This document shows, piece by piece, positions 3,800-14,700 of a stretch of DNA of 26,879 nucleotides. The position numbers and the translations under genes are program-made. Source of the DNA: a virus. Location: the IMG/VR virus record IMGVR_UViG_3300025625_000040, positions 1-26,879 of that record, one strand, 5' to 3'. The notes below the pieces were generated by a model that saw nothing but the letters and a program-made list of their open reading frames with translations, did not search any database and was not told the DNA's origin. Position 1 is the first letter of the stretch. Each line of letters opens with the position of its first letter.

Positions 3800-3838
3800 C
3801 TTGCTCCTTTTATAAAACAGGTGTTTGCGTTTCAAGGG

Positions 3839-3846
3839 TAGTATAC
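3839..3846 (+). promoter_or_regulatory. -10-like TAGTAT with AGTATAC motif before the integrase
   Basis: TAGTAT (3839-3844) ends 7 bases before the integrase ATG at 3852, the spacing expected for a leaderless transcript. No matching -35 was found. The overlapping AGTATAC (3840-3846) recurs twice upstream of the excisionase-like gene. Confidence 0.35.
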
Positions 3847-3851
3847 GGCAC

Positions 3852-5408
3852 ATGGGCACCGACGGGCAACCGCTGATGGAGATCAATCCGCACCACCTAT
3901 GGATGCACGCTCGTAAGTCGAGGCACCTCGGCGATCCGGACGACCCGGCCCTCCTCCTGACCCATCTCGCCATCCTGCGGCGCCTGGCCGCCGCCGATGG
4001 CGTGACGGTCCCGCCGGAGTGCGTCATCACCGAGGTCGAGTCGGGGGAGTACCTGGGCCAGCGCCCGGCTTTTCTCGGGTTTCTCGAAGCCGTCGAGCGG
4101 CTGCCGCCGCAGGCGGGCGGCGTCCTCTACTGCATGGCGTTCGACCGGCTCTCGCGCGGCGACGCGCTGGAGCGGGCCCGAGTCCGCGTCGCGCTGTGCC
4201 GCGCCGGCATCCTCATCCGCACCCCCGGCGGCTGGATCGACCTGGCCGACCCGGATCAGGCGCTGCTGGCTGGGGTCCGCAGCGAATTGGCCGAACACGA
4301 GCTGGCGCGCTTCAAGCGCCGGGTCGCGCTCGCCCGCGCCGAGAAGCTGCGCCGGGGCGAGATCACCAACGGCGCCGTGCCGTTCGGCTACCGCTGGGAC
4401 CGGAACGCCCGCCGCCCGGTGCCGCACCCGGAGGAGTTCCGGGTCCTCGTCGCCTGCTGCCGCGCGGCGCTGACTGACTCGCTCGCCCGGCTGGCCGCCC
4501 GCTATCAGGTCCCGGAGTCGGTGCTGGCCCGCGCGCTGCATTGCCCGACCATCTGCGGCTGGGCCGCGCGCCGCTATGGGCTGCGCCGGGGCGCGGACGG
4601 CCGCGCGGCCGACTTCATTCTCCCGCGTGCCGAATGGCTCTGGGCGGAAGCGCCGGGCCGTTGGGAGGCAGCCTGCACGCGAGAGGAGTGGGAAGCGATC
4701 CAGCGCGCCCTCGGGGAGCGCGACCGCCGGCCGCTCTGGACCGGCGCCCCGGATGGCTGGTGCCGGGACGTGGTGCGGTTCCGCGAGGCCGCGCCCGGGT
4801 CGTGGGTGCGGCTGCAGAATTATGGACGGCTCCCGTGTTACGCGGCCGTGGGGCCGGAACCGGGCCGCGTCTCCGCGTTCGTCCGGCGCGCCGCGGTCCA
4901 TGCGGAGGTGACTCCGGCGCTGCTGCGGGTGCTGGCGAAGCCGGAGCTGCTCGCGCGCGTGCTGGCGGCGCAGGCGGCGCGGACCGCCGCCGAAACGCGC
5001 GGTCCCGCGCGAGAAGCGCTCGCCGCCGAACTGGAAGCGAAGCGCGCCGAACTGGACCGGGCCACCCGCGCGCAGTTAACCCTGCCCCCAGGAGAGGGGG
5101 CCGACTCACAAGCGCGTGTCCTGCGGGCCCTGGAGGGTGAAGCGCGCGCCCTCGCCGCGCGGCTGCACCAATCACCGGCCCCCCGTGATACGACCTGGCA
5201 CGCGCCGCTGCTGGCCGAGCTGGCCCGCGCCGCTCCCTTGACCGGGAGCGACTGGGAAGCGGCGCCGCCCGCGCTGAAGCGGGCCATCGTGCAGGTCCTC
5301 CTCGCCGCCGTGCCCGTCGAGATCGACCGGAAGCCCGGGCAGCGCCAGCCGCCGCGCCGCGTGCTGCCCGTCATCTGGCAGCCGGAGATCGCGGACCTCG
5401 GAGTTTAG
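3852..5408 (+). CDS. int: Large serine recombinase (phage integrase)
   Basis: This 518-aa protein is a large serine integrase, which recombines attP with attB through a covalent phospho-serine DNA intermediate. The N-terminal resolvase domain shows the catalytic arginine and serine in ARKS (S23), and DRLSR (98-102). The recombinase domain starts with the linker helix and a GAVPFGYRW motif (174-182). Residues about 385-460 form a heptad-rich coiled coil (REALAAELEAKRAELDRA), as expected for the control of integration versus excision. A typical C-terminal end (KRAIVQVLLAAVPVEI) follows. The CxxC pairs of the usual zinc ribbon are not visible. ATG 3852 is preferred; a TTG at 3825 adds 9 residues. 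The gene lies just downstream of the repressor and ends at a hairpin shared with the convergent neighbour. Confidence 0.92.
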   Translation: MGTDGQPLMEINPHHLWMHARKSRHLGDPDDPALLLTHLAILRRLAAADGVTVPPECVITEVESGEYLGQRPAFLGFLEAVERLPPQAGGVLYCMAFDRLSRGDALERARVRVALCRAGILIRTPGGWIDLADPDQALLAGVRSELAEHELARFKRRVALARAEKLRRGEITNGAVPFGYRWDRNARRPVPHPEEFRVLVACCRAALTDSLARLAARYQVPESVLARALHCPTICGWAARRYGLRRGADGRAADFILPRAEWLWAEAPGRWEAACTREEWEAIQRALGERDRRPLWTGAPDGWCRDVVRFREAAPGSWVRLQNYGRLPCYAAVGPEPGRVSAFVRRAAVHAEVTPALLRVLAKPELLARVLAAQAARTAAETRGPAREALAAELEAKRAELDRATRAQLTLPPGEGADSQARVLRALEGEARALAARLHQSPAPRDTTWHAPLLAELARAAPLTGSDWEAAPPALKRAIVQVLLAAVPVEIDRKPGQRQPPRRVLPVIWQPEIADLGV

Positions 5409-7838: not shown

Positions 7839-8933
7839 ATGACCGCTGCAATTATCCCGCTCAACGATCAGCTCACAGAAACCGAAGCCGCCGCCCGACG
7901 CCGCCCGGCTGACCTCCCCTGGACGACCTGGGAGAAGCTGGAAGTAATGCCCGCCGATCTGGCGCTCTTGCGAATGGAATGCCTGGATGGACAGTTGACC
8001 GCGAAGCTGCCGGGGCAGGCGCCCTACCGGGTGGCGCAGTCCTTCCTCGAAGGTCTCGGCGGGGAAACGACGTTCCCCCCGGAGTTCGTCGGGAAGCTCT
8101 CGCCGGCTCTCCAGGCGCAAATCATTAACGAGCGGCTGGACAAGACGCCGCCCCGGCTCATGTCGCTCGTGATGAACGGCGAGACGTGCGTCCGGTTCCT
8201 GCCGGGAGATCGAGCGGTGCTGCCCGCTCCCGCCGTGGCAGACCGGATTTACGACCGGCTCCTCGATCTCTATGGGGGCGTCGAAATCGACGAAGCGAAG
8301 GCGTACAACGGGGAGCACTGGCTCCGGTTCACCACCCCGTTCACGAAGGCGCTGACTGGCGAGCGGGTCCAGCTCGACCCCCAGCGCCACGAGATGCTCA
8401 AAGAGGACGTCCTCGCGCTGGGCGTGCAGGTGCGGCACGAGTTCCGGGATGGGCTGGCCGTCGAACTGCACGTCAAGCGCCTCCTCTGCTACAACTCGGC
8501 CACCTCAGTCCGGCACGCGTACTCCTGGCGCGTCAAAGAGGATCGCTCGGAAGGCGCACAGCTCGCCTGGCTTGATGACGTGATCGCCGGGCTGCCGGCG
8601 GAGTTCGACCGCTTCTTGGAGCACGGCCGCATGATGGAAGCGGAGAAGTTCGAGGGGCATCCCCGGACGGCATTACAAGCAGCAGCAAAAGCGATGAAGC
8701 TGCCGAAGCGGCTGCTGCCGGGATTGTTCGCTGCCTTCGACCAGGAGCCAGGAGACAATCATTGGGCGATCTTGCAAGCCCTGACCCGGATGGGAACGCA
8801 CGGGGATTTAGCGCCGGGGCTGCGCCGAGATCTGTGCAGGACCGCCGGAGAGTGGGTGCAAGATTTCGACATGACGACGGCTCGTTTGCCTCGCGCTCTG
8901 GCTAATAGCATTGGCGCACAAATCCTCGAATGA
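7839..8933 (+). CDS. DUF932-like phage/plasmid protein (364 aa)
   Basis: The 364-aa soluble protein has the layout of DUF932 phage/plasmid-like proteins: an N-terminal part predicted to be beta-rich (residues about 60-160, with RLMSLVMNGETCVRFLPGD), a middle region where gene-specific antigens vary, and a conserved-style C-terminal helix block NHWAILQALTRMGTHGDLAPGLRRDLCRTAGEW (about 310-343). In the family these are abundant early proteins of unknown biochemical role. TAAGGAG stands 10 bases before ATG 7839. It overlaps the homing endonuclease start by 4 bases (ATGA). The family call rests on pattern memory and could be wrong. Confidence 0.5.
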   Translation: MTAAIIPLNDQLTETEAAARRRPADLPWTTWEKLEVMPADLALLRMECLDGQLTAKLPGQAPYRVAQSFLEGLGGETTFPPEFVGKLSPALQAQIINERLDKTPPRLMSLVMNGETCVRFLPGDRAVLPAPAVADRIYDRLLDLYGGVEIDEAKAYNGEHWLRFTTPFTKALTGERVQLDPQRHEMLKEDVLALGVQVRHEFRDGLAVELHVKRLLCYNSATSVRHAYSWRVKEDRSEGAQLAWLDDVIAGLPAEFDRFLEHGRMMEAEKFEGHPRTALQAAAKAMKLPKRLLPGLFAAFDQEPGDNHWAILQALTRMGTHGDLAPGLRRDLCRTAGEWVQDFDMTTARLPRALANSIGAQILE

Positions 8934-9724
8934 ACCGGATTTATATTCTGGTGGACCCACGGACTGCCTCCGGGCGGTACGTGGGTATTACCTGTCAGAC
9001 TCTAGCGAACCGGCTCCTGGGACATATCTGCGACGCCAAGGGCAAGTGCCGCACTTACTGCAGCCGCTGGATCAGGCAGCTTCAGCAAGCGGGATGGGAG
9101 CCGGTAATGATCCTGATCGAAGAGACAGAAGATCGAAGTCGCGAGTGCTTCTGGATCGCTCATTATCGCCAGGCAGGGTTGCCGCTTACTAATCTTACTG
9201 ACGGCGGTGAAGGCACTCCGGGGTCTGTCAGGACCCCGGAGATGCGGCTTCAAATGAGCCTTGCTCGTCGGGGGCGCAAAAGACCCCCCGCCAGTGAAGC
9301 GAGAAAAGCGAAAGCTGCCCAAGGAAATAGAATCGCCTGGGCAAGGCCGGAAATGGCGGCTGTGCGAGCCCGAGTTGCTGAAGCGGCTGCTGCCCCTCGT
9401 CGCGGCAAACCCCTCTCGGAAGCGCACCGGAAAGCGATTGGAGACGCTCAACGGGGGAAGCTGGGGCATCCTTGCAGTGAAGCCACGAAACAGATTCTCT
9501 CCGAGAAAGCAAAGCATCGCCCGTTCCCAAGCGAAGAGACGCGTATCAAACTATCCGAAGCGAGCAAAAGAAAAGTGGTCACTGCTGAAATGCGCGAGAA
9601 ATGCAGAGCCGCAGCTCTTCGGTCCTGGCAGACAAGAGATCGGCCCCGCCACCGGCCAGACGGCAGTTTTGCACCAAAGGAAAAAGCCCCTCCCGGCGGT
9701 TTCATCTTGGAACCTTTTAAGTAG
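8930..9724 (+). CDS. GIY-YIG homing endonuclease with NUMOD3 repeats
   Basis: The 264-aa protein begins with a GIY-YIG nuclease domain: YIL (5-7), YVG (18-20), then the metal-binding glutamate E72 in ECFWIAHYRQAG and the family ending NLTDGGEG. It is followed by repeated NUMOD3-type DNA-binding motifs (about 110-130, 158-178, 182-216; pattern S-E-x(2)-x-K-x-S-E-A). Free-standing enzymes of this kind nick a homologous allele and copy themselves in by recombination. It starts inside the stop of the DUF932-like gene. Its last codons overlap copy 2 of the GGAACC element, so it is well embedded in the operon. No intron boundaries are visible around it. Confidence 0.9.
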   Translation: MNRIYILVDPRTASGRYVGITCQTLANRLLGHICDAKGKCRTYCSRWIRQLQQAGWEPVMILIEETEDRSRECFWIAHYRQAGLPLTNLTDGGEGTPGSVRTPEMRLQMSLARRGRKRPPASEARKAKAAQGNRIAWARPEMAAVRARVAEAAAAPRRGKPLSEAHRKAIGDAQRGKLGHPCSEATKQILSEKAKHRPFPSEETRIKLSEASKRKVVTAEMREKCRAAALRSWQTRDRPRHRPDGSFAPKEKAPPGGFILEPFK

Positions 9725-10075: not shown

Positions 10076-10261
10076 ATGAACAACGGCTTGATCGCTGCCG
10101 GCACGGCGCACGCTCTCGGCCTCGGCCCTGACCCGGCTGACTGCGAGTTCCGGGTTGAGGATGACTTTTGGATGGAAGAGGAGAGTGAGGCAGAATCGAG
10201 CAGGAGGCGTTCCGTTGACAGGTTTATTGGAGTTCCGGAGAGAGGAAGTCGCAGTGATTAA
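10076..10261 (+). CDS. Small acidic protein, paralogue of 9780-10010 (61 aa)
   Basis: ATG 10076 has a good ribosome binding site (GAGGAGAGGGG). The sequence IAAGTAHALGLGPDPADCEF followed by DDFWMEEESE aligns with the previous gene, so the two look like a tandem duplication that has diverged at the C-terminus; here the cysteine pair is lost. The end of the gene overlaps the start region of the pentapeptide-repeat protein. Function unknown. Confidence 0.55.
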   Translation: MNNGLIAAGTAHALGLGPDPADCEFRVEDDFWMEEESEAESSRRRSVDRFIGVPERGSRSD

Positions 10262-10862
10262 TCGTGACAAGATACAGCCGTATGCCGATCTGCGCGGCGC
10301 CGACCTGCGCTGCGCCGACCTGAACGACGCCGACCTGCGCTGCGCCAACCTGGGCGGCGCCAATCTGGGCGGCGCCGACCTGCGCGGCGCCGCCCTGCGC
10401 GGCGCCGACCTGCGCTGCGCCAACCTGGGCGGCGCCAATCTGGGCGGCGCCGACCTGCGCGGCGCCGACCTGCGCTGCGCCGACCTGCGCTGCGCCAACC
10501 TGGGCGGCGCCAACCTGGGCGACGCCGCCCTGAACGGCGCTCGCCTGAACGGCGCTCACCTGGATGTTGGCACCACCCTGGAGAGCGGTGAGACGTGGGG
10601 CATGTATCTCGCCGGGGAAGTGGCCGCCTTGCTCACTGCCGGCGGCCGCCCGCTGTCAGAGGTGGCGCAAAGACGCCACTGGGAGTGCCACTCGTGGTAT
10701 GACTGCCCCATGGCGGCGGCGTTTTCGGCAAGCGGCGTGGAGGAGACGCCCCTCCGGCTGCGGCCCCGCGTCGAGCAGTTCATCCGCTTTTTCGACGCGG
10801 GCTTGATCCCCATGCCGGCGTGCGATCCGGGGCGCGGGAGGGGTGCCGGCGATGAGTGCTGA
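10215..10862 (+). CDS. Pentapeptide-repeat protein with extra C-terminal domain
   Basis: About 18 consecutive pentapeptides of the form A(D/N)Lxx (residues roughly 31-122) predict a right-handed quadrilateral beta-helix. In the family this fold can mimic DNA (for example gyrase-binding proteins), but that function is not shown here. A C-terminal domain of about 90 residues follows, with HWECHSWYDCPMAAAF and a final FIRFFDAGLIP segment. TTG 10215 is preferred because AGGAGG sits 7 bases upstream; GTG 10254 is an alternative 13 residues shorter. At the DNA level two 75-base units (from 10331 and 10406) share about 62 identical bases, a sign of recent expansion. Confidence 0.8.
   Translation: MTGLLEFRREEVAVINRDKIQPYADLRGADLRCADLNDADLRCANLGGANLGGADLRGAALRGADLRCANLGGANLGGADLRGADLRCADLRCANLGGANLGDAALNGARLNGAHLDVGTTLESGETWGMYLAGEVAALLTAGGRPLSEVAQRRHWECHSWYDCPMAAAFSASGVEETPLRLRPRVEQFIRFFDAGLIPMPACDPGRGRGAGDEC
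10331..10480 (+). repeat. 75-base tandem duplication within the pentapeptide gene
   Basis: The sequence from 10331 repeats from 10406 with about 62 identical consecutive bases. The unit equals five pentapeptides, so length changes keep the reading frame and the beta-helix register. Confidence 0.7.
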
Positions 10863-11070
10863 TCTCACCGCGAACGACGTGCCTATCAGGATACGACCGT
10901 TTCCGCTATTCAGTCTTGAACCGAGTAAGAAGGAAATCGCCTGCCTGATGGTGAACATGTTCCCGGTCTTGCAGATTAACATACTCAAGGCTGCTGCTTC
11001 CTCGAAGCAGGCGCACCTTGCTAGACAGCGATGTTCGCCGGGTTCTGCCGGGCAATCCGCCGGCAGGTAA
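10852..11070 (+). CDS. Hypothetical small protein, possibly a fusion with tnpB 3' end
   Basis: ATG 10852 overlaps the stop of the pentapeptide gene (ATGAGTGCTGA), so coupled translation is plausible. The 72-aa frame has an N-terminal part (MSADLTANDVPIRIRPFPLF) of no known family. From about residue 43 (NILKAAASSKQ) the sequence enters the structured region described next. 'NILKAA' recalls the extreme C-terminal helix of TnpB proteins, but the cysteine pairs and the catalytic aspartate that should precede it are absent. It may be a truncated gene joined to a deletion remnant. Confidence 0.4.
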   Translation: MSADLTANDVPIRIRPFPLFSLEPSKKEIACLMVNMFPVLQINILKAAASSKQAHLARQRCSPGSAGQSAGR

Positions 11071-11178
11071 AACGTCGTCGGTAGCGTCGTAACGGTGCAA
11101 ACCATAGATTGCCGTGGGGCTGCACGGCAGAGGTGCGATACCTCGGATGCCCCTCCCTTGAGGGACGGGGAGCAGTCA
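10978..11178 (+). ncRNA. Orphan omega-RNA-like right end of an IS200/IS605 (TnpB) element
   Basis: Five hairpins follow one another: CTGCTTC/GAAGCAG (10994-11010), CTGCCGG/CCGGCAG (11045-11066), TGCCGTG/CACGGCA (11110-11129), GAGGT/ACCTC (11130-11144) and CCCCTCCCT/AGGGACGGGG (11150-11170). The 3' end reads GATGCCCCTCCC... GGGGAGCAGTCAC. It closely resembles the common right end of TnpB transposons, a purine-rich GAxGCCCC stem followed by GAGGATGTCA. In those elements the tnpB 3' end and right end are transcribed as the guide (omega/right-end) RNA of the nuclease. Length (about 200 bases), structure and 3' end fit. No tnpB or tnpA is present, and no left end was identified. It may instead be an unrelated structured RNA or terminator complex. 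Confidence 0.5.
11150..11170. terminator. GC-rich hairpin at the meeting point of convergent operons
   Basis: CCCC+TCCCT pairs with AGGGA+C+GGGG (one bulged C, tiny loop). It lies six bases past the end of the minus-strand fibre gene, between two convergent transcription units, so it could act as a bidirectional terminator whatever its origin. There is no T-run. Confidence 0.4.
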
Positions 11179-11769
11179 CTGCACCGCTAACCAGGTGCAG
11201 CCATAGACGGTATTCGCCTGCGAAGCGGCCGGCGCCGTCTGGAACCCGAGGGTGAAGCTCGTCGTCCCCACCGCGGCCAGGTACGGGTTCAGCGCCGCCG
11301 TGAGCGCGTTGTTCGGGGTGATGAGCACGAACGGCGCCGTCCCGAACGCCGCGTGGAACGTCACCACCGCCGCGTTCCCCGCCGCCGGGCTGGTGCCCGT
11401 TCCGAAGGTCAGGCTGCCCCGGCTATCGTCCGCCGCGGCCGCCACCACCGGCGCCGGAGGGCTCGTGCCCGCGTTGCTGCCCGCCGCTGCTGTCGGAGCC
11501 GTGCCGCCGCCGAGGTTCAGGTGCGCGCCGCCGGACAGGAGTGAGACCCAGGCGCTGCCCGTGTCCCGGTACAACGCTTCGTTCCCCACGTCGGTAGCCA
11601 GGTAGAGCCGGCCTGCCCAGCCCGCCGCCGGCCGGGCTGCCAGCGTGCCGGTGAGGATGCCCGAAGCCAGCATGGCGTCGATGAGGGTGGCGTTATTGTT
11701 CAGAGTGACACTTTTTTGCGCCTGGGATTCGACCAGCAGACTCAGGCCGAGGTTCGGGGTGATTGCCAT
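11176..11769 (-). CDS. DUF2793-like phage tail fibre protein
   Basis: The 197-aa protein starts MAITPNLGLSLLVESQAQKSVTLNNN at ATG 11769, with a GAGG-type ribosome binding site after the upstream stop. This opening is typical of DUF2793 tail proteins. The middle repeats a short beta-rich segment (RLYLATDVGNEALYRDTGSAWV), characteristic of fibre heads attached to a receptor-binding tip. The C-terminal about 85 residues (SLTFGTGTSPAAGNAAVVTFH... GCTWLAVQ) look like a small beta-sandwich tip domain. It is the last gene of the late operon, just after the megatron-like protein, the usual place for the receptor-binding protein. Its stop abuts the omega-RNA-like sequence. Confidence 0.8.
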   Translation of the reverse strand: MAITPNLGLSLLVESQAQKSVTLNNNATLIDAMLASGILTGTLAARPAAGWAGRLYLATDVGNEALYRDTGSAWVSLLSGGAHLNLGGGTAPTAAAGSNAGTSPPAPVVAAAADDSRGSLTFGTGTSPAAGNAAVVTFHAAFGTAPFVLITPNNALTAALNPYLAAVGTTSFTLGFQTAPAASQANTVYGCTWLAVQ

Positions 11770-11782
11770 AACAAATGCCTCG

Positions 11783-14700
11783 CTACTGGGAGACGAGCGT
11801 CGACGCGTAGCCGGGGCCATAGAGCCCGATCTGCTGCACCCACCAGCGGACCGGGTTCTGCGCGGCGCCGAAGTCCGTGGTTTGCGCGGCGGCGGTATAG
11901 GAAGCGGTGGGGCTGCTGACGGTGATCTGCCGCATGACCCGCTCCGCCGTGCCGGTCCCCGCGGCATAGACGCCGAAATACTGGGTCGCCATGCCGATGG
12001 TGAACGTGTTCGCCGTCACGTTCCCCACCGTGAAGACTTGCCCGTTCACGGGCGTCATCCCTTTGATGCCGGAGAGCGCGACCTGCTGACCATTCGCGAA
12101 GCCGTGGGCGGCCGCCGTCACGACGCCGCTGCTGGGATCATTGGTGATGCTGCTGATGCTGGCCGGCAGCCCTTGCATGACGGACAGGACGTACGACTCG
12201 ACGAGTTCTGAGAGGGGGACATCGCCGCCATCGACGAGCTCCCCGGCAATTCGCGTCCGGCGCACCCACGTAAACGTGATATTATGGCTCCCATCCCGGC
12301 TGGTCGCCTGCTGAACGGGCGAGTAGGTTTTGAGTTCCTGTCCTTCGATGTAAACGGCGACTGCCGCCGCGGCGGACAACGGCTCCCCGAGCGTGATGGC
12401 TTTCAAAAGCACGGTTCCTCCGCGCATGTCCGGCGTCAGCGGGACGTGCGTCACGGAAACGGTGTCCAGCAGCGCGAACGCCTCCCCGATGACGTGCTCA
12501 TTCTGGTGCGGCTCTGTTCCTCTCCTGCCCCGCAGCAGCCGCGACAGCCGGTAGACGTTCCCGCCCTGGGGGATGACCGTCCCGAACTGCAGAATCTCCG
12601 TCCCTAGATAACAGGCGTTCCCGCCGGCCAGCACGGCCGCATCCGAGGTCGAGACAGGCGCGCTGCCGGAGGTGATGAGAATGTCCACCGTATGGGTGGT
12701 GTCCCAGAGATCGGCCCCGCCGTCGTTCAGGCCGCTGCCCGGCGCCAGCAGGGTGTTCGCGGTGCCCAGCACCGCTCCCGCCGTCTGGGTCGCCACTTCC
12801 TGATAGGAAGCCCCACCGTCGCGGGAGGCGTAGAGCGCGCCGCCCAGCCAATTCTGCCCCGCCGGGCCGTTCATCGCGGAGTAGTAGCCCACGCCAGCGG
12901 CGTCCGCGTCCCGCAGCGCGTTACTGTTCCACGCGGCCAGGATCGTGGCAGTGGCGGGGATCAGGTCCGAGGCCGGCACGGCTGCCGCCCCTAATGCCGT
13001 CTGCGTCAGCAGCGAGGCGTCGTCTTCCACCGCCGTGATCGCCAGGGGGCCGACGAGCGCCGCGTCCAGGTCGACGATCCGGCAGCGCTTCGTCTGGCCG
13101 GCCACCGGAATGTTGAGGACGTCTCCCGCGGCGAGCTGGAGGTACTTCGGCGGCAGGCTGAATTGATACTGCTGCCGCTCCGTCCACTGCTTGTAGAGCT
13201 CTTTCTGCGCTAACTGCCGCGCCGAGTTGGCGCCGAAGACCATGGTCGTGTGCAGCGTGACCGGCTCCTGAACCGTGTCCTTGGTGAACCGGGTCGCCCC
13301 CTGGAGGCCGAGCTGGTAGTTCGTCGCTTTGTCGTAGTAGGTGAGGTCGATCCGAAACGGCAGTTCAAAGTCCTGCAGGCGCTTCGTCTGCACCTTGGGC
13401 GGTGGATCGGTTTCCGCACCGGCGGAGACGTGGGCCGCCAGATCGCCCACCGGCACGGTCAGGACGGGGGCGCTGCCGCGCTTCTTGGCGACGATCTTCC
13501 CGTCCACCTCCACCAGGTCGGTGTCGTAGGCCATCAGCAGGTACTGGAGCACCGCGCGGGCGTCTTGCCGGGTGTGTTGGATGAACCCCTGCACGTAATC
13601 GCCGGCCTGCGAGACGTCATACTGCGCCGGGGTGAGCCCGGCCTGATCGAACACGTCCGCGAGAATCGTCCCGACGGTCGAGCCTTTGCCCTGGTAATGC
13701 GCCTCGACGGTAGACGCGGAGAGGAGGGTGTTGTAGAACGCGCACTCGTCGAGATAGACCTGGGAGGCGGAAGTCGTGTTCCCCTCGTCGATTTCCACCT
13801 CATTCGCGGCGTCGGGAGTGATGGTGATCGGCGCCACCGGCGCGATCGTCTGCTGCACCGGGAGGCCGTCAACGTAGAGGATGGCCATGCCGGCGCTGTC
13901 ATAAGTGGCGACGACGTGATGCCAGAAATTATCGGTCAGGCCGGTATTGTAGGTAAACACGTCCACCACGCCGGAGGTGTTCGTGAAGATGCGGAGATCG
14001 ATAAAGACTTGACCGGTGAAGATATTCGGCTCGATCCAGAGCCGCCAGGCCAGTTCGGCGGTCGTGGGGTTGTGATACTCGAACTGCGCCGTCGTGCCGT
14101 TGGGAGACAGGCCCCCCTGATAGGCGTACCAGAGCTCTGCGGAGAACTGCGCCGGCTGGAGATCGAGGTCATTACCGGAGACGTGGAACACCTTTGTTGA
14201 TACCGGCAGTACCAGGGCCTGATTCGCGTGGCCGCCGGTGGAAGTCGGCGCGCCTCCTGAATAAGACAGGTTGTAACCCTTAGGACCAGAATCGGTGAAC
14301 CAGCCCGGCGTGGTGTCGAAGCGGTAGTAGACCTGCAAGCCCCCGGTGTTCTCGATGATCGTATGATACGGAACGACGTTGGTCACCTCGTAGGTGATGG
14401 AGGGGATGCGGTTCCCCCAGCGCTGCAGGTCCAGGTTATCGAAGACGACGTACGCCAGGCCCCGATAAGCCGGGCTGCCGTTGGCGCCCAGCACCGCCGC
14501 GATGAGGCTGTCCACCGTCTGCGCTTCGTCCCCCAGGTAGATCCGGATCGTGTCGTTGGCCAGCGCCGCCGGGCTCTGGGAACCGTCATAGATCAACAGG
14601 TCCTCGGCCCAGATGCGATCGATGGACGTGATCGGCCCCCGGCAGACGCCGATGGCCAGATCGACGACGTAGTGCGTCTTGCTGGTCGCCTGCAGGTTCC

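Follow-up and report, generated by a model that had tools for sequence, protein, structure and literature searches.

Can the guide RNA of TnpB, the ancestor of Cas12, persist in a phage that lacks the tnpB gene? This question is raised by a hairpin-rich block with the terminus GATGCCCCTCCCTTGAGGGACGGGGAGCAGTCAC in a viral contig (IMG/VR record IMGVR_UViG_3300025625_000040; the whole analysed stretch of 26,879 nt is referred to as the window). An earlier note, made from the letters alone, had described a series of hairpins at 10978-11178 that ends like an IS200/IS605 TnpB element. Hairpins and terminus are indeed present, and the RNA 10978-11178 folds with -88.9 kcal/mol (z -2.9); of 200 dinucleotide shuffles, 198 fold less well. 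The proposed bounds locate the block properly but are too narrow, as homology to a second viral copy (L001; IMGVR_UViG_3300036851_000385, 70 kb) starts at about 10920; likewise, the last base of the right end is C11179 and not position 11178. The structured RNA block thus comprises window positions 10920-11179 (+), 260 nt, with an IS200/IS605-type right end at its terminus. On its left it is flanked by a pentapeptide-repeat gene (10155-10862, +), and on its right by a convergent tail-fibre-like ORF (11176-11967, -) with weak matches to PHROGs of unknown function. Block and flank comprise the following features:

10920..11179 (+): whole omega-RNA-like block, tnpB-less, delimited by homology to L001 (2211-2470) and the consensus fold
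10978..10995 (+): codons reading NILKAA, not a TnpB remnant (wrong register; frame absent in L001)
10994..11010 (+): 5' hairpin CTGCTTC-CTC-GAAGCAG, from single-sequence folds
11045..11074 (+): module of a 7-bp hairpin (CTGCCGG/CCGGCAG) abutting GTAAAACG; the same module has unrelated stems in relatives
11110..11129 (+): hairpin H1, stem TGCCGTG/CACGGCA, loop GGGCTG; 7/7 pairs covary in alignment A5
11118..11122 (+): 5' half (GGCTG) of the loop-tail pairing, partner 11173-11177; paired in 30/30 sequences
11130..11144 (+): hairpin H2, GAGGT/ACCTC, from covariation
11146..11179 (+): IS200/IS605-type right end, GATG, hairpin H3 (11150-11170) and AGCAGTCAC; matches TnpB 3' ends
11173..11177 (+): 3' half (CAGTC) of the loop-tail pairing, directly 5' of the guide position, from covariation
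11180..11199 (+): would-be guide position, TGCACCGCTAACCAGGTGCA, formed by right-flank DNA that is antisense to the last part of the fibre ORF
11176..11967 (-): tail-fibre-like flanking ORF, stop codon within the right-end TCAC, from the ORF list

The right end follows the scheme GATGCCCC-hairpin-GGGGAGCAGTCAC, that is, a subterminal hairpin and a conserved terminal cleavage-site sequence are both present. Blastn matches among phage and plasmid records were confined to the right-end hairpin. Only seven plasmid records were retrieved, each aligning the 35-nt terminus to the 3' end of an annotated TnpB gene; identity to the enterobacterial plasmid TnpB 3' ends is 88.6% over 35 nt (E 0.3, weak by itself). 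Scanning ~85,000 species genomes with the pattern GATGCCCC-N9..17-GGGGAGNAGTCAC yielded 107 stretches in genome contigs, many of which lie at the tnpB 3' end in Methanoculleus, Methanosarcina, Methanothrix and relatives. In these archaea, the tnpB codons for NI(L/M)-R-L-G-L-Q-S form the hairpin GAGATTG-GGGCTG-CAATCTC, which is the counterpart of TGCCGTG-GGGCTG-CACGGCA in the window, followed by a second hairpin and then the right-end hairpin in the same order as in the window. Accordingly, the last ~74 nt of the block (H1, H2, the right-end hairpin H3 and the loop-tail pairing) have the architecture of a TnpB-linked 3' end. A covariance model of 72 positions (R1), built from 23 archaeal 3' ends with the window and L001 left out, retrieved both viral copies in a search of 418 kb: L001 scored E 8e-7, and the window aligned along all 72 positions with E 0.0018; the right-end part of the match is expected from the selection of the archaeal set, the H1 and H2 parts are not. 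Together with the plasmid and archaeal TnpB 3' ends, this match bears out the proposed resemblance of the terminus to TnpB element right ends. A search against Rfam, including IscB/HEARO-type RNAs, yielded no family, whether judged by gathering score or by E <= 1, and no tRNA was found in the window.

Given its location between convergent ORFs, the block could also be a bidirectional transcription terminator, or its hairpins could be due to chance. We consider both very improbable, in view of the specific homology to and covariation with TnpB 3' ends. An intrinsic terminator would in addition call for a G+C-rich stem followed by a T run, which is missing, and 0 terminator-like sites were found as compared to 0.7 expected. 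Thus, neither of the two outcomes that the earlier note had named as speaking against its idea was obtained: a covariance match exists, and no terminator-like site is present at the block.

Profile searches revealed TnpB (PF07282) and the Y1 transposase TnpA (PF01797) in neither of the two viral records, both of which may be fragments, and tblastn with five full TnpB proteins returned nothing in the window or at the L001 locus. The peptide NILKAA had been likened to the last helix of TnpB. Its codons are located 185-202 nt upstream of the right end as compared to about 70-75 nt expected, the distance at which the NIL/NIM codons of the TnpB-linked relatives overlap H1, and L001 has not preserved the frame; we therefore regard this similarity as coincidence. 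The central claim, an omega-RNA-like right end without tnpB, holds on the strength of covariance models that match in both directions, the covariation described below and the negative PF07282 and tblastn searches.

L001 is the one true relative among 2.9 million viral contigs scanned for the terminus. About 260 nt are homologous between window 10920-11179 and L001 2211-2470 (66% identity, E 3e-18). In the consensus fold of this two-sequence alignment, 22 of 58 pairs are changed on both sides, as compared to 11.5 +/- 3.0 in column shuffles preserving the conservation pattern, none of which (0/200) reached the observed number (energy z -5.3). Taken by themselves, the last 72 columns contain 5 compensatory pairs versus 0.7 +/- 0.8 in shuffles. 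In the first 188 columns alone, the energy z is -2.8 and compensatory pairs are not in excess (12 versus 10.3; reached by 66/200 shuffles), perhaps because of poor ungapped alignment in this part. The constraint on the 5' structure is therefore less secure than that on the 3' structure. At about the place of the hairpin 10994..11010, single-sequence folds of L001 contain a different hairpin, CGCCT...AGGCG. Other candidates were set aside: blastn matches H8 and H9 of L001 cover ~10%, none of 15 further viral-contig loci matching the 5'-motif pattern is a full relative, two viral-contig hits of a stem pattern scan (L222, L223) are chance matches, and so is L057, where the terminal pattern falls within a coding ORF and the other hairpins are missing. 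As a separate observation, L001 (856-1035, -) and an ORF of the window encode small proteins with a common Cys/His pattern (CxCPxWxHR...CKH, SWIM-like) that are 42% identical over 62 aa.

Conservation of the 3' structure was assessed in 30 aligned 3' ends, two of them viral, twelve from Chloroflexota and sixteen archaeal. The named structure is 90.9% paired as compared to 70.2% in shuffles, and both partners vary in 19 of 24 pairs. Covariation amounts to 0.573 versus 0.195 in shuffles, which ignore relatedness, and drops to at most 0.10 when the partners are slid, a control that keeps relatedness. The window itself is paired at 24/24 positions. In all 30 sequences, the H1 loop pairs with the tail segment that directly precedes the guide (150/150 cells paired); this pairing occurs in the variants CTG/CAG, CTA/TAG, TTA/TAG, CGG/CCG, CGA/TCG and CAA/TTG, variation in part of this pairing being limited by selection of the archaeal sequences with the fixed tail AGTCAC.

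The omega-RNA of ISDra2 and Cas12 guide RNAs likewise have a pseudoknot just before the guide (PMC10097598), a role that the covarying loop-tail pairing appears to fill in the block. Similar to the ISDra2 omega-RNA, the block would be a right-end RNA in which stems and a pseudoknot precede a flank-derived guide (PMC8612924, PMC10097598). The pairing partner differs, being the H1 loop about 55-60 nt upstream in the block and a segment about 100 nt upstream in ISDra2. Moreover, the ISDra2 RNA overlaps the tnpB 3' end of the same element, whereas the window block is devoid of tnpB. Thus, judged by the putative pseudoknot and the statistical match to models of TnpB-linked 3' ends (R1, and R2 below), the block looks like a TnpB omega-RNA; tnpB in cis was detected in neither viral record by PF07282 or tblastn, and therefore we describe the block as resembling an omega-RNA and do not class it as an ordinary TnpB element.

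To place the block among cellular relatives, a second covariance model (R2), made from the two viral copies only, was run on whole genomes, with rough E-values. R2 matched TnpB 3' ends in one Chloroflexota MAG and two Methanoculleus genomes (E about 1e-10 per genome) and gave no match in six other genomes. At E <= 1e-6, it detected 6 of 251 genomes of the phylum of the Chloroflexota MAG; matches were further obtained in 8 of 158 genomes of one class, and in 0/294 and 0/398 genomes of the phyla of a Planctomycetia MAG and an Azospirillum MAG, respectively. Four matches (L200, L208, L219, L220) have tnpB directly upstream. At least six Chloroflexota copies are tnpB-less, meaning that TnpB is absent within ~1.5 kb or the available flank: L209 (genome G166), L210 and L213 (G256) and L211 (G071), and further L216 and L221 (G1011), L217 (G982) and L218 (G963). 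Genome G002 contains short deletion elements consisting of left and right end (L203, L206, L215). L210, L211 and L213 share 98-99% identity across 174 nt and reside at different sites with different flanks; this RNA has therefore moved recently and obtained a new would-be guide each time. Sigma70-like promoters (10-11 of 12 matches; at most 3/300 shuffles) precede L210, L211, L213 and L218; none was found in the window or L001. By eye, left-end-like hairpins are discernible upstream in L001 (about 2173-2204), L203, L209, L211 and L218, and no recognisable left end is present in window 10780-10925, so that the window copy may have lost mobility and become fixed in the phage. It may be added that the similarity of L210 to L211/L213 begins at TACCTGATAG, beside the predicted transcription start, and no left end is shared, a 5' junction that is odd for an IS605-type element.

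The 5' part of these RNAs contains a 6-7 bp hairpin abutting GTAAAA, which is present in the window, L001, L209, L210/L211/L213, L216 and L221, with one ATAAAA and one GTAAAG, and missing in L217 and L218. The stems are mostly unrelated in sequence and the loops are similar; taken singly, each hairpin is met by 6-20% of shuffles, and direct abutment is seen in all. None of 13 TnpB-linked 3' regions examined has this module. Given this distribution, the tnpB-less RNAs resemble a separate family more than recent deletions of the sampled tnpB elements. The idea of a deletion derivative thus survives in part: the block has the makings of a tnpB-less IS200/IS605 derivative, but it is not simply a recent deletion product of a known tnpB element. 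This bears on the rather unlikely alternative that the block is an inert remnant, that is, a tnpB-less derivative moved by TnpA in trans, whose inherited RNA structure is functionless in the phage. Apart from the 5' module confined to tnpB-less copies, the complete pairing of the 3' structure in the window and the 22 compensatory changes between the viral copies speak against inertness, as does conservation extending far past the end hairpin needed by TnpA. An inert element would nonetheless agree with the window having no visible promoter or left end, with the deletion elements in G002 and with the fact that palindrome-associated transposable elements (PATEs) arising from core deletion are well described (PMC3119063, PMC7290912).

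Could a TnpB encoded elsewhere use such an RNA, as had been suggested? TnpB is encoded in all six genomes that carry long tnpB-less copies (G166, G256, G071, G1011, G982, G963), the base rate in the class being 66/158 genomes; five of five genomes of this class would occur by chance with a probability of about 0.01 if the genomes were independent. Moreover, tnpB-less copies share the CGG/CCG pairing with a TnpB element within G256 and within G071, and the CAA/TTG pairing within G166; both variants are uncommon in the set. In G982 and G1011, the pairing variants of tnpB-less copies and recovered TnpB elements differ. Matching variants would fit use of the resident TnpB, recent origin from a TnpB element, or shared tail requirements of TnpA. 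The putative retention of the RNA for a TnpB supplied in trans fits the six genomes and three variant matches. The two G1011 copies, L216 and L221, are 76% identical over 257 nt and differ in their H1 stems; their loop-tail variants are CTG/CAG and CAA/TTG, and the one TnpB element found in this genome has CTA/TAG.

On balance, and with moderate confidence, we interpret the block as a non-autonomous (PATE/MITE-like) IS200/IS605 element with a full, elaborated omega-RNA (reRNA) and neither tnpB nor tnpA; this RNA is probably served by a TnpB in trans. Arguing for this interpretation are the full-length viral homologue, the R1 and R2 matches, the covariation and the invariable loop-tail pairing, as well as the mobile tnpB-less copies, the promoters on four of them, the presence of TnpB in every genome concerned and the variant matches. 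It is weakened by the failure to find a promoter and a left end in the window, and by the differing variants in G982 and G1011. In keeping with a PATE, protein genes are lacking and the right end is present in the window; movement is seen for the relatives L210/L211/L213. Absence of tnpA is expected of a non-autonomous derivative, and therefore the element is classed as an IS200/IS605 derivative and not as an autonomous member. Mechanistically, the RNA would be transcribed through the right end, its last ~16-20 nt representing a flank-derived guide, and would load into host-supplied TnpB. The RNP may then cleave element-free alleles of the insertion site, and repair would restore the element. 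Cutting of element-free alleles to keep or restore the element has been proposed for TnpB acting in cis (PMC8612924). More tentatively, one may envisage a subfamily of stand-alone omega-RNA genes that spreads protein-free via TnpB (and TnpA) in trans, equipped with its own promoter in host copies, its own 5' domain and a loop-tail pairing tuned to the TnpB of the same genome; phages would be among its carriers, where it might serve as a fixed guide or as a decoy directed at the host TnpB.

The phage context bears on the latter aspect. The window encodes a 527 aa protein (3825-5408, +) with a resolvase N-terminal domain and a size sufficient for a serine integrase. It is possibly a large serine integrase, which would make a temperate lifestyle likely and a lysogenic stage beside a host TnpB plausible. 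The nearest phage relatives infect Microcystis, Sphingobium, Caulobacter and Rhodobacter, at about 30-34% identity, and the window tail protein was not found in the 158 genomes of the class at E <= 1e-10. A GIY-YIG/NUMOD3 homing-endonuclease-like gene (8930-9724, +) is located about 1.2 kb from the block, so that mobile elements gather in this region, and the pentapeptide-repeat gene consists of near-identical GCGCCGACCTG-type repeats. The would-be guide had been described as antisense to the fibre gene, which is correct as to position and orientation; it is merely the right flank, as in any IS200/IS605 insertion. At up to 3 mismatches, guide 11180..11199 has no second match in the window, and 11170-11230 has none in phage records. 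Relatives of the fibre gene provided no alignable empty site, as the shared protein part is mostly a ~40-residue core.

Improbably, in our view, the block could be a domesticated phage RNA, either a decoy occupying host TnpB or a guide for cutting element-free competitor phages at the fibre locus. Only two viral copies are available, and the guide is ordinary flank for which no second target was found in the window or phage records. What domestication would explain is that two viral contigs with unrelated tail genes (nothing in the L001 record matches the tail protein of the window) share a longer 5' domain (10920-11040), which was not seen in the shorter Chloroflexota copies, and that mobility may have been lost along with the left end. 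There is also a parallel in a halovirus, as the 3' end of the HRTV-DL1 PATE, an element of 489 bp with a near-identical host copy, is described as strongly transcribed during infection (PMC10544981). Like the window block, this element is virus-borne; it is archaeal, and the description on which our comparison relies does not extend to omega-RNA architecture or TnpB matching (PMC10544981).

Returning to the non-autonomous element as the preferred interpretation, its closest known counterparts are PATEs, first of all those of Haloquadratum and other haloarchaea, some of which are deletion products (PMC3119063). Similar to these, the block is non-coding, IS605-derived and presumably moved in trans, and has near-terminal palindromes in common with tnpB elements (PMC3119063). 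In contrast to haloarchaeal PATEs, the block family consists of a 170-260 nt RNA with covarying structure, its own 5' module and a promoter in host copies, and the present set resides in bacterial hosts and a tailed-phage contig. A likewise non-coding PATE-like element of Halanaerobium hydrogeniformans has a left and a right end and no intact tnpA/tnpB (PMC7290912). It keeps the last 58 nt of tnpB, indicative of a plain internal deletion, whereas the phage block has no recognisable tnpB codons. PATEs, one of them in a halovirus, are thus already known; what appears to be new is a long RNA in a phage and Chloroflexota that keeps the covarying structure of a TnpB guide RNA without tnpB, in some cases with variants matching those of the same genome. 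Meers et al. 2023 (Nature 622:863) reportedly describe PATEs of Geobacillus, IS605-type elements devoid of protein genes that accompany TnpB elements within a single genome. Should guide RNAs persist and spread independently of their nuclease, guide and effector could become separated in systems other than CRISPR, and a single TnpB might be shared by many non-coding elements, phage-borne ones among them. The matched pairing variants in single genomes make use in trans directly testable, and the tnpB-less set provides natural omega-RNA scaffolds free of coding constraint. Finally, right ends of the same type are numerous in Deltaproteobacterial/Myxococcota genomes (L066-L070, L105-L108, L133-L137), where, if upstream sequence is available, they are accompanied by short ORFs resembling an IS200 transposase, i.e. 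TnpA rather than TnpB.
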